Source: Sneathiellales bacterium (GTDB taxonomy: Bacteria; Pseudomonadota; Alphaproteobacteria; JANQFL01). From it: a stretch of 48,374 nt of DNA. Within the stretch, counting starts at the first letter, position 1. Each line of letters begins with the position of its first letter. Shown here piece after piece: positions 21,056 through 24,482 of this stretch. Under the pieces are notes generated by a model. That model made no database searches and was not told where the DNA came from. It worked only from the letters and a program-made list of their open reading frames with translations. Made by a program: the position numbers and the translations under genes. Location of the stretch: assembly GCA_028277845.1 (NCBI GenBank), contig JANQFL010000058.1:1-48374 (forward strand), given 5' to 3'.

Positions 21056-21266
21056 TTTTGACGCCCGTTTTATCTCGATAACCACAAATATTCATTTGTG
21101 TAAGGCTTTGGCGGCAACGGATCAATTTATGGCCCGTCGGCTGCCATGATTTTTTGATCCACCGAACCCGAAACGATGCCCGGCCGACTTGACGGGCTGG
21201 CTCGAATCCAATTTCTCTAATGATATCAGCAAGTTATTTCTTTTGTGGCGGCCATTAGCAATTTTT

Positions 21267-21295
21267 TTGCAATTAAGAATGATTATTAGTTGCAA
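21267..21295. promoter_or_regulatory. Fur-like iron box 1
   Basis: A 29-bp dyad with TTGCAA at both ends and AAT-G-ATT at the centre. Its core of 16 bases (GCAATTAAGAATGATT) recurs in reverse orientation at the second box before bfd. The AATNATT centre fits Fur-family boxes. It lies about 235 bp before the first gene of the unknown operon and just before the candidate RNA. Confidence 0.65.
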
Positions 21296-21416
21296 ACGAA
21301 TCGCGAGCCCGCTAAGGTTGCCTTGCGTCGGGACGGAGCGGCTCTAGCCGGCTCTGTTCAGGCCCTCCTGATCGCGGGACTCACCCCGCCCCGGCGACGG
21401 GGCGGGGCTTTTTTTC
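21296..21416 (+). ncRNA. candidate iron-regulated small RNA or operon leader
   Basis: About 120 nt between the iron box and a strong intrinsic terminator, with no ORF. It contains a stem-loop at about 21336-21356 (GAGCGGCT with AGCCGGCTC), an apparently unpaired CCCTCCT (21363-21369) complementary to a ribosome-binding site, then the terminator hairpin. This layout (regulator box, short structured RNA with an anti-Shine-Dalgarno-like loop, terminator) matches bacterial small RNAs. A terminator-controlled leader of the downstream operon is the alternative. The transcription start is not defined. Confidence 0.45.
21384..21415 (+). terminator. strong rho-independent terminator
   Basis: Perfect 10-bp stem CCCCGCCCCG / CGGGGCGGGG with a GCGA tetraloop, followed by C and seven T residues. 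It lies 114 bp upstream of the start of the next gene, so it ends an upstream transcript or attenuates the operon. Confidence 0.9.
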
Positions 21417-21528
21417 CGGACCGGCGAACGGGACGGTACAAGGCGCGATCGGGCCAATGAGTCCGGGCCAATTCTCTTGGCGGTTTCGGGCCGAAACAAA
21501 ACGTCGTTGCACTTTGAAGGAAGAAAAC

Positions 21529-22038
21529 GTGACAGCAGGACCGAATAGCGAAGACACCGGATCCATGACCTGGGAAGACCTTTGCCGGCGCGATCAACTG
21601 CTGCTTTGGGGCATGCGGACTTGGGTGCGTCACGTCAAATCCGGCGTGTGTCCTCATGCCGCGTTGGTCGAGGGGTTGCTGCCCTTTGGTTTGGAAGACG
21701 CCATCGATCCGCTCGATACGTTTCTGACAACGGTCGCCGACTATGCGCAAGGCAAGATCGACGTGCGCTGCCCCCAATGCCAGAAGGTCAGCGCCGATGA
21801 AAACACGCTGATCCGTTTCGTCAACGGTTGCCGGTCGTCCGGACGGTCGTTTTCCACGGACGGCATGGCCGGGCTCGTTCACGCCCGCGGTATGACCGAG
21901 TGCCTGCGCACCGCGTTCCTTCTGGCTGTCGCATCCATCTATCCGAGTAGCTCGCAAAAGGCCGGTCAATTCGAACCGGATGCGGCGTTCGGGCACGACG
22001 AGCACTATCCCTTTTCACAGTCCCAATCCGTGCACTGA
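21529..22038 (+). CDS. unknown protein, first gene of iron-box operon
   Basis: About 169 residues from a GTG with a GAAGGAAG ribosome site 6-8 nt upstream; an internal Met at residue 13 is an alternative. I do not recognise the family. It is soluble, with Cys at 19 and 41 (GVCPHAAL) and a CPQC pair at 81-84 that could bind metal or an Fe-S cluster. It ends in a His/Ser/Gln-rich tail. Its stop overlaps the next start by one base (TGATG). It lies downstream of a Fur-like box and upstream of bfd and bacterioferritin genes, so a role in iron handling is likely but unproven. Confidence 0.7.
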   Translation: MTAGPNSEDTGSMTWEDLCRRDQLLLWGMRTWVRHVKSGVCPHAALVEGLLPFGLEDAIDPLDTFLTTVADYAQGKIDVRCPQCQKVSADENTLIRFVNGCRSSGRSFSTDGMAGLVHARGMTECLRTAFLLAVASIYPSSSQKAGQFEPDAAFGHDEHYPFSQSQSVH

Positions 22039-22613
22039 TGGCCATGCAGAGATTTTCAACCACGCGCGATCAATTGGAACCGAATTCGGTCATTCGTTAT
22101 CTGCGTCCGAAACGCGTGCACTTCGGTTTGTGCGACCTGATGCCGCGTGAGCGGACAGTGGTGTCGGCAATACGGCATGCCTACCACGCGGCCGTCGGCG
22201 GCGGACAGGCGACCGAAGGTATCGAAACGGCCTTGGCGGACGAGCAGTTGGAAGCCACGGCGCCCACGTTCCTGTGGATGGCCATGGGTCTGGCCAAAAG
22301 CCGGACCCACCTGAAGCGTGGATTGGATATCCGCTCGGTCAAATCGCCGATCCTCGGCGTCGACGAACTGTCGTTGCTGAATGCGATTGCCGCCATGCAG
22401 GACGGCCAGGCCATGCTGGCGAGCGCTGTGATCGCCGAGACCCTGCCGCCCTACCACCGGCGGCACTTTGCCGCTTTGCGGGCTCTATCCCGGCAATTGT
22501 CCCTGGCCGGCTGCATCCTGAACGGAACCGGTCTGCAGGCCAACGACGCGACGATCGCCAAGGGGCCGTGGCAGGAGATGCCGGTGCAAGTGTCGGGAAA
22601 GAGGAAACAATGA
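22038..22613 (+). CDS. unknown protein, second gene of iron-box operon
   Basis: 191 residues with no recognised domain, no signal peptide and a mostly helical look. It has two His-containing motifs (AIRHAYHAAVGGG near 48 and YHRRHFAALR near 144) and a few isolated Cys. Starts overlap at both ends: one base with the gene before and ATGA with the gene after. The three are therefore a translationally coupled unit. The lack of any recognised homologue makes it a good candidate for an uncharacterised iron-associated protein. Confidence 0.7.
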   Translation: MAMQRFSTTRDQLEPNSVIRYLRPKRVHFGLCDLMPRERTVVSAIRHAYHAAVGGGQATEGIETALADEQLEATAPTFLWMAMGLAKSRTHLKRGLDIRSVKSPILGVDELSLLNAIAAMQDGQAMLASAVIAETLPPYHRRHFAALRALSRQLSLAGCILNGTGLQANDATIAKGPWQEMPVQVSGKRKQ

Positions 22614-22801
22614 CATCCCTGGTTGCCCCGTTGGGGTCCGATTGCGTGCAATCCGCCGAGGATATGTGCGGGTCGGCGCGATGCTTCGAGCCGGTTGCCA
22701 AGATCTGTCCGGTGCGTCGCGGGCAGGCGACTCCGGATGAGTGCCGGTGCCCCATTTCCGGGCTTCGTGCATTGCTTCATTGGATACAAGGCGGGACGTA
22801 A
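22610..22801 (+). CDS. small cysteine-rich protein, third gene of iron-box operon
   Basis: 63 residues with six Cys (12, 20, 25, 33, 45, 47), the last two as CRC; such density suggests metal or Fe-S binding. A GAAAGAGGAAAC ribosome site precedes the ATG, which overlaps the previous stop as ATGA. No family is recognised and no signal peptide is seen. It is immediately followed by the second Fur-like box and bfd, so it may be a small redox or metal-transfer partner. That role is inference. Confidence 0.65.
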   Translation: MTSLVAPLGSDCVQSAEDMCGSARCFEPVAKICPVRRGQATPDECRCPISGLRALLHWIQGGT

Positions 22802-22854: not shown

Positions 22855-22875
22855 AATTGACAATCATTCTTAATT
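22855..22875. promoter_or_regulatory. Fur-like iron box 2, upstream of bfd
   Basis: Symmetric AATT-N3-AATCATT-N3-AATT, sharing 16 bases with box 1 on the opposite strand. It sits 38-58 bp before the bfd start codon, where a repressor would cover the promoter. Confidence 0.65.
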
Positions 22876-22912: not shown

Positions 22913-23113
22913 GTGTTTGTTTGTATTTGCAATGGCTTACGGGAACGGGACGTGCGCGAAGCGTCGCAGGGCGTGCGCTCCGTGAAGGAATTGTATTGCC
23001 GGTTGGGCGTCGACGTGCAATGTGGCCAATGTACCCGTTTCGCCAAGGAAATCATGAACGAAACACGCAATGGGCCGTCTCCGGACACGGCTATCGTCGG
23101 CGCCGTTGCTTAA
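22913..23113 (+). CDS. bfd: bacterioferritin-associated ferredoxin
   Basis: A 66-residue [2Fe-2S] protein that binds bacterioferritin and passes electrons to its haem to release stored iron. Cluster ligands are C4 and C6 (VCICNGL) and C37/C40 (CGQC), the Bfd pattern. The GTG start is set by an AAGGAG ribosome site 6 nt upstream; the longer frame from 22874 would add a non-family N-terminus. In low iron Bfd is normally induced by loss of Fur repression, which fits the dyad just upstream. The bfr genes lie nearby on the other strand. Confidence 0.93.
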   Translation: MFVCICNGLRERDVREASQGVRSVKELYCRLGVDVQCGQCTRFAKEIMNETRNGPSPDTAIVGAVA

Positions 23114-23355: not shown

Positions 23356-23826
23356 TTAACTGGCCTGTGACTGCAGATAATTCTCCAAACCCATGGCGTC
23401 GATCAGCTTGAGCTGTTTTTCCAGCCAATAGGTGTGATCCATTTCGGTGTCTTCCAGCAGGCCGGTCAATATATGACGGCTTTCGTAGTCGCTGGCCGCT
23501 TCGCAAATCCCAATGGCCGTTTTCAACGCTTTCACGACGGACAGCTCCAATTTCAGATCGTTCTTCAGTATGGCCGGCACCGTCTTGCCGACGCTCAGGG
23601 CCTTGCGCCCGCCGACCTTGGGGGTGCCTTCCAGGAACAGAATGCGCTGGATGAGTTTCTTGGCGTGATCCAGTTCCTCTTCCATCTCGTGATGGATATG
23701 CTCCTGCAGTTCGCCGAAACCCCAGTCGGCGCACATTTCGCTGTGGATGAAGTACTGGTCGACAGCGGTCAGTTCCATGGCGAGCAAGCCGTTCAACTGG
23801 GCGATGACTTTCGCGTTCCCCTTCAT
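23356..23826 (-). CDS. bfr: bacterioferritin, haem-ligand-less subunit
   Basis: A 156-residue ferritin-like subunit for iron oxidation and storage in a 24-mer. Ferroxidase residues are all present: E18, E51, H54, E94 and an E128-x-x-H131 pair (shifted by one relative to E. coli). The haem-ligand Met52 is replaced by Leu in EEELDHA. It should therefore not bind haem by itself and may form mixed shells with the neighbouring Bfr. A GGAGAGCACG ribosome site precedes the ATG. It is 54 bp downstream of the other bfr gene. Confidence 0.95.
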   Translation of the reverse strand: MKGNAKVIAQLNGLLAMELTAVDQYFIHSEMCADWGFGELQEHIHHEMEEELDHAKKLIQRILFLEGTPKVGGRKALSVGKTVPAILKNDLKLELSVVKALKTAIGICEAASDYESRHILTGLLEDTEMDHTYWLEKQLKLIDAMGLENYLQSQAS

Positions 23827-23880: not shown

Positions 23881-24348
23881 TCAGGAGCTCTGCATCTGAA
23901 TGTAGTTCTCGATGCCCATCTTCTTGATCAGACCCTGTTGGGTCTCGATCCAGTCGACATGCTCTTCCTCGCTGCCGAGGATTTCCCGGAACAGATGCCG
24001 GCTGACGAAATCGGATTTCCTCTCGCACTCGGCGATGGCCTTGAGCAGGTCCTTGTGCGCCGCTTTTTCCATGCGAAGATCGCAGGCGAGAATTTCCTCG
24101 ACGGATTCGCCGATCATCAACCGGCCAAGATCCTGCAGATTGGGCAGACCTTCGAGGAACAGGATGCGTTCGATGAGATCGTCGGCATGTTTCATCTCAT
24201 CGATCGATTCCTTGTATTCCTTCTCGGCCATTTCTGAGATGCCCCAATCCTTGAGCATGCGGGAATGCAGGAAATACTGGTTGATCGCCGTCAGTTCGTT
24301 CTTCAGCACCGTGTTGAGGTGCTTGATGATCGCGGCATCCCCTTTCAT
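23881..24348 (-). CDS. bfr: bacterioferritin, haem-binding subunit
   Basis: A 155-residue bacterioferritin close to the E. coli type. The ferroxidase set E18, E51, H54, E94, E127, H130 and the haem axial ligand Met52 (SIDEMKHAD) are intact. The [13 protein letters not shown] block is conserved. It is the first gene of the two-bfr unit, with an AAGGAGAACATT ribosome site. The pair suggests a heteropolymer in which this subunit brings the haem that receives electrons from Bfd. The 24349-24482 upstream region is AT-rich and must hold the promoter; no clear dyad was found. Confidence 0.96.
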
Positions 24349-24482
24349 CTAATGTTCTCCTTGTTGCGAATAGTTACTAATTGCATTATTACTTGGCCTG
24401 TATATGCCCATACTTAAGGCGCGATTGTTCATTCCAATCTATTACACTTGCTTGTTAAGTAAAGAGCTTGGATGCGCCCAGG

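Follow-up and report, generated by a model that had tools for sequence, protein, structure and literature searches.

FsrA of Bacillus subtilis and IsrR of Staphylococcus are Fur-repressed small RNAs (sRNAs) that combine a C-rich segment covering Shine-Dalgarno (SD) sequences with an intrinsic terminator (PMC9410917); each comes from its own separate locus and has proven targets. Among the Alphaproteobacteria, iron starvation in Caulobacter induces RusT, an sRNA of about 118 nt that is controlled by NtrX and encoded between lolA and xth (PMC11005374). A Fur-repressed Caulobacter region, CC0682-sRNA1-CC0681-sRNA2, holds candidate sRNAs beside small hypothetical genes, although northern blot showed one large transcript only (PMC3751524). 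Anti-SD sRNAs of this class include BjrC1505, SorX/SorY and the alphaR8/MmgR/SisA-D RNAs, in which a single-stranded anti-SD segment stands ahead of the terminator, and the Caulobacter siblings of the SisA-D type run from different, unrelated promoters (PMC12559287).

We analyzed a 48,374-nt stretch of DNA from a Sneathiellales bacterium (hereafter the window) in which about 780 bp, from the start of a divergent PEP-CTERM gene to the GTG start codon of ORF1, hold no convincing gene. Within this gap, a Fur-type box and a terminator hairpin about 90 bases further along the same strand bracket a stretch that likely specifies a Fur-controlled, early-terminated transcript of ~120 nt (Table 1). The 5' end of this predicted transcript would lie near 21293, judging from the positions of the box and the -10 element. 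We searched 21292-21416 for a plausible gene and found only SD-poor frames with TTG starts, which bears out the original prediction that the stretch is gene-free; for the same reason we rejected a leader peptide. A TTG-start frame of 45 codons at 21323-21460 crosses the terminator and has no convincing start; a longer version of ORF1 has an in-frame ATG (21457) that overlaps the stop of this frame, probably by chance.

Table 1. Features of the Fur-boxed locus and the adjoining iron cluster, in window coordinates.
Feature	Position	Strand	Basis or remark
Divergent PEP-CTERM gene	start 20746	-	upstream neighbor of the region
Weak sigma-70-like promoter, TTAGCA-17-AATGAT	21255..21283	+	8/12 consensus bases
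Fur-type box AATTAAGAATGATTATTAGTT	21271..21291		21.4 bits, second best in 48 kb
Predicted ~120-nt transcript (sRNA or terminated leader)	21293..21415	+	Fur box 5', terminator 3', no gene between
Internal stem-loop	21331..21359	+	MFE and centroid fold, stably predicted
Anti-SD-like CCCTCCT	21363..21369	+	sequence
Intrinsic terminator (10 G-C pairs, GCGA loop, T7)	21384..21415	+	stem -24.9 kcal/mol
ORF1, GTG start with GAAGGAAG, 169 aa	21529..22038	+	uncharacterised iron-regulated family
ORF2, 191 aa	22038..22613	+	start overlaps ORF1 stop
ORF3, 63 aa, cysteine-rich	22610..22801	+	start overlaps ORF2 stop
Second Fur box AATTGACAATCATTCTTAATT	22855..22875		26.9 bits, best in window; before bfd-like gene
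bfd-like gene (bacterioferritin-associated ferredoxin)	22913..23113	+	PF04324, E 3e-8
Bacterioferritin (bfr)	23356..23826	-	TIGR00754, 166.9 bits
Bacterioferritin (bfr)	23881..24348	-	TIGR00754, 240.2 bits
Weaker Fur-type box	24362-24382		matrix, 15.2 bits; before minus-strand bacterioferritin gene

To score Fur boxes we used a matrix learned solely from the regions upstream of ORF1 homologs in other genomes, with the window left out. This matrix ranked the box before the bfd-like gene first in the window, the box of the predicted transcript second and the box before the bacterioferritin gene third, and it found no site above 20 bits in Markov windows (n=100). The Fur-like dyad of the original prediction is therefore real, but it lies at 21271-21291, ahead of position 21296 where the predicted stretch had been made to begin. 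Across the genome, a Fur consensus pattern gave 14 matches at 12 sites compared to 0 for the reversed control, with neighbors that include a TonB receptor, ABC permeases and rubrerythrin (named from sequence). The genome also carries five Fur-superfamily genes and one hfq gene. Together, the predicted box, the matrix drawn from other genomes and the genome-wide pattern lend good support to the proposed control by iron through Fur. The -10 of the sigma-70-like promoter probably sits within the box, and the promoter itself falls below the scan threshold of 9/12 consensus bases. The locus shares a Fur box at the presumed promoter with the class of Fur-regulated iron-sparing sRNAs. Elsewhere in the genome, a second FUR-superfamily gene adjoins a Fur-like box and a rubrerythrin gene (L080, L110; G000 C52:37576-37966), which suggests a PerR-type pair.

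The hairpin at 21384-21407 is a perfect 10-bp stem made entirely of G-C pairs, followed by a C and then by seven Ts at 21409-21415, in line with the original prediction. When both strands were scanned, no other intrinsic terminator in the 48 kb came near it in strength, and none of 10 mononucleotide-shuffled windows contained a hairpin that combined a stem of at least 9 G-C pairs with 6 T in 8. As it lies on the plus strand and the sole upstream gene is on the opposite strand, it serves no neighboring gene. Early termination is thus well supported, and a short non-coding unit ending in a Rho-independent terminator is a second property of the iron-sparing sRNA class found here.

The three genes behind the terminator stand at the head of an iron cluster with bfd and two bfr genes. 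Of 385 alphaproteobacterial genomes, 41 carry an ORF1 homolog, and neither Pfam nor NCBIfam offered a matching family; a single-protein ORF1 search of the genome contigs found nothing. The alignment of the family is highly variable, with invariant R, W and E residues, a mostly conserved RCxxC motif and a C-terminal LH (loci L003-L030). A AATTGCGAATCATTCGCAATT-type 21-mer stands upstream of 23 of 27 homologs, in most cases at a distance of 10-66 nt from the start codon, and ORF1 is by this measure a predicted Fur-regulon protein, conserved and of uncharacterised function. Just 5' of its ribosome-binding site, 21483-21497 form a perfect inverted repeat, GTTTCGGGCCGAAAC, a possible operator or hairpin. 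A DUF2325-like gene (named from sequence; L065 6731-8032) adjoins a strong Fur box of 30.4 bits, and a gene of this kind also stands beside the ORF1 homolog in L007, suggesting that it may share the iron regulon.

Comparison with other Fur-boxed leaders sets this one apart. From the end of the box to the start codon, the 23 homologous leaders measure 10-172 nt compared to 237 nt here, and none has a terminator between box and gene. Nor did we find a terminator within 400 nt of any of 10 other Fur-box sites in the same genome or of the three boxes at a bfr locus (L065), indicating that this locus is peculiar in having a terminated leader. A search for homologs of the bfr genes led to a Rhodospirillales MAG with a bfr pair and Fur boxes, but without ORF1 and with no terminator beside a box. 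The 125-nt stretch had no DNA homolog in 40 relatives or in the 385 genomes of the class, a set that includes no genus- or family-level relative of the organism. We rejected the low-E matches as homologs since they cover the GC hairpin; the best of them, L082, is the one that covers the C-rich part, and it was rejected because it lies within a coding frame.

We then considered the RNA itself. Folding supports the internal stem that had been proposed. The region as a whole folds better than shuffles (z = -3.3), but this is because of the terminator: the body alone (21293-21382) reached z = -1.35, no stronger than shuffles, and 52 of 500 shuffles folded equally well. The CCCTCCT segment, described beforehand as exposed, is so in part. 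In the predicted ensemble 21364-21366 (3 of 7 bases) are unpaired at 0.90-0.99, whereas 21367-21369 are unpaired at about 0.06 and held in a weak 3-bp helix. The motif occurs once in the window, counting both strands; of 91-nt stretches, 1.3% contain CCTCCT and 6% contain CCTCC, so that CCCTCCT is mildly unusual, and it was picked after the fact. When the C-rich segment was paired in silico with ten start regions from the window, those of both bfr genes among them, the duplex energies were within the null, a weak test that speaks neither for nor against targets.

The reading we favor, to which we give a little less than an even chance, is that of a Fur-repressed, terminated RNA that acts as a lineage-specific anti-SD sRNA with Hfq, with residual read-through into the operon. 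On this model, iron-loaded Fur on the box would block the promoter, and low iron would release transcription from near 21293. The strong terminator would stop nearly all transcripts, which would accumulate as a stable RNA of ~120 nt, and a few would continue into ORF1-ORF2-ORF3. We conjecture that the CCCUCCU segment, together with Hfq, pairs with the ribosome-binding sites of other mRNAs, which would be the targets of the candidate RNA. With a fixed terminator of this strength, the Fur promoter would produce mainly the ~120-nt RNA, which favors an sRNA with residual read-through, and the absence of a terminator from the other Fur-box sites compared argues that termination is not the default of such leaders. 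The presence of Hfq, the weak full-length similarity to the anti-SD family BjrC1505 and the further anti-SD sRNAs of this genome (see below) also speak for this reading. Several results count against an sRNA: the stretch lacks homologs, the body folds like shuffles, half of the seed is paired and the duplexes lie within the null. The iron regulation conferred by the Fur box may also serve the operon alone. Weighing all the readings, we rate a trans-acting sRNA of any kind as somewhat better than even.

The most serious rival takes the short RNA for a by-product with no function of its own: ORF1-3 would be expressed from the Fur box, as in other species, and the terminator would throttle the operon, either by constitutive partial termination or with relief by some factor. 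We regard this as a substantial possibility, though one well short of even. The original prediction had named a terminating operon leader as its alternative, and this would fit the comparative data, because in 23 of 27 homologs a box of this type lies immediately 5' of ORF1 and serves the operon directly. At this locus, a matrix scan found no further Fur box in 21292-21529 and a promoter scan found no promoter-like site between the terminator and ORF1 (21416-21529), so that the operon is probably transcribed from the Fur-box promoter, by transcripts that pass the terminator. The lack of conservation in the leader sequence also suits a by-product. However, without relief a terminator of 10 G-C pairs and T7 would silence the operon almost fully, and we found little sign of a relief mechanism. 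Pairing of the 5' arm with the body came to -7.9 compared to -7.0 kcal/mol in shuffles (fraction 0.35) and, in a second comparison, to -11.9 compared to -12.1 (fraction 0.46), and no known riboswitch or Rfam leader matched. As this gain in arm pairing is no better than that of shuffled bodies, we rejected an attenuator or antiterminator as unsupported. Even as a mere leader, the locus would be an unusual early-terminated form of a Fur operon that elsewhere is transcribed without such a stop; if our favored reading is true, the Fur-boxed terminated RNA would be a concrete candidate sRNA.

Another possible origin, which we consider improbable, lies in the alphaproteobacterial anti-SD group (BjrC1505, alphaR8/MmgR-SisA, SorX/SorY), of which the RNA would be a diverged member captured by an iron promoter. 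Rfam returned no match in the window at gathering score. Under relaxed thresholds the best match was BjrC1505 (RF02356), which spans the full model at 25.7 bits (E 0.02 for the genome), and the order of elements is similar, with a hairpin, CUCUGUU, CCUCC, ACUC and a GC-rich terminator. Such a capture would have a precedent in the unrelated promoters of the Caulobacter siblings (PMC12559287), and several sRNAs of this type exist in the genome. Both scores nevertheless fall below their gathering scores. We rejected BjrC1505 membership because 25.7 bits compares to a gathering score of 50 and the core TTGACGCCTCCCTGTT, found in nearly all BjrC1505 relatives, is missing, and we rejected membership of alphaR8/MmgR/SisA (RF00519) at 16.3 bits compared to 41, as there is no UUUCCUCCCU core. 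Scored with a model built on the transcribed core of BjrC1505 relatives, the window reached 18.6 bits, the level of bare terminators in the genome. The CtrA-type upstream sites of the own-genome BjrC1505 members are missing as well, their place being taken by the Fur box.

Two true BjrC1505 members occur in the genome (C124, 57.4 bits; C110, 41.8 bits), and each has CtrA-type GTTAAC sites together with a GACGCCTCCCTGTTGAACTCGAGCCGCC core. At L062 2553-2689 (minus strand) and L063 2304-2426, the two BjrC1505-type sRNAs of the genome have CtrA-like GTTAACC/TTTTAAC sites upstream, and these anti-SD sRNAs are apparently tied to the CtrA circuit. Two alphaR8 members score above the cut-off (C34:25976-26053, minus strand, 69.2 bits; C31:3490-3570, minus strand, 46.8 bits). 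Unclassified CCTCCC RNA candidates with CCTCCCTCCC or CCTCCCTGTT segments lie at C83:43775-43859 (plus strand), which has two C-rich stretches, and at C40:32267-32344 (minus strand). With at least six anti-SD-type sRNAs in the genome, this mode of action appears to be in regular use there.

Least probable is that the parts are independent, with an unseen promoter after 21416 for the operon and another role for the hairpin, for instance as a relic or as the tail of a small ORF. The TTG-start frame does pass through the hairpin, and GC-rich sequences resembling the hairpin arms alone are common in other genomes. Against this, that frame has no convincing start and extends across the terminator, 21416-21529 is devoid of promoter-like sites, and box and hairpin share one strand about 90 bases apart.

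How the candidate compares with described iron sRNAs depends on the feature chosen. The original prediction of a functional analog of RyhB holds in that Hfq and Fur-family genes are present, but no target, conservation or clearly exposed seed backs it. RyhB, PrrF and NrrF resemble the candidate in having a Fur box over the presumed promoter, with Hfq in the genome and a similar size, but they show no sequence match to it, and the candidate stands before an operon; PrrF (RF00444) was rejected at 17.9 bits compared to a gathering score of 90. RusT is similar in size and differs in its regulator and genomic position, and the Caulobacter CC0682-CC0681 region offers a similar setting but a single large transcript. 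A C-rich anti-SD iron-sparing RNA would be nearer in kind to FsrA and IsrR, whose layout the candidate is predicted to share, than to RyhB, although neither is homologous to it. That the RNA is in fact an anti-SD iron-sparing sRNA like these two, of independent origin, expressed from the promoter of the conserved ORF1 operon and co-induced with that operon under iron scarcity, is a tentative and rather doubtful proposal, in which this locus would join FsrA and IsrR as a Fur-repressed RNA built from a C-rich segment and a terminator.
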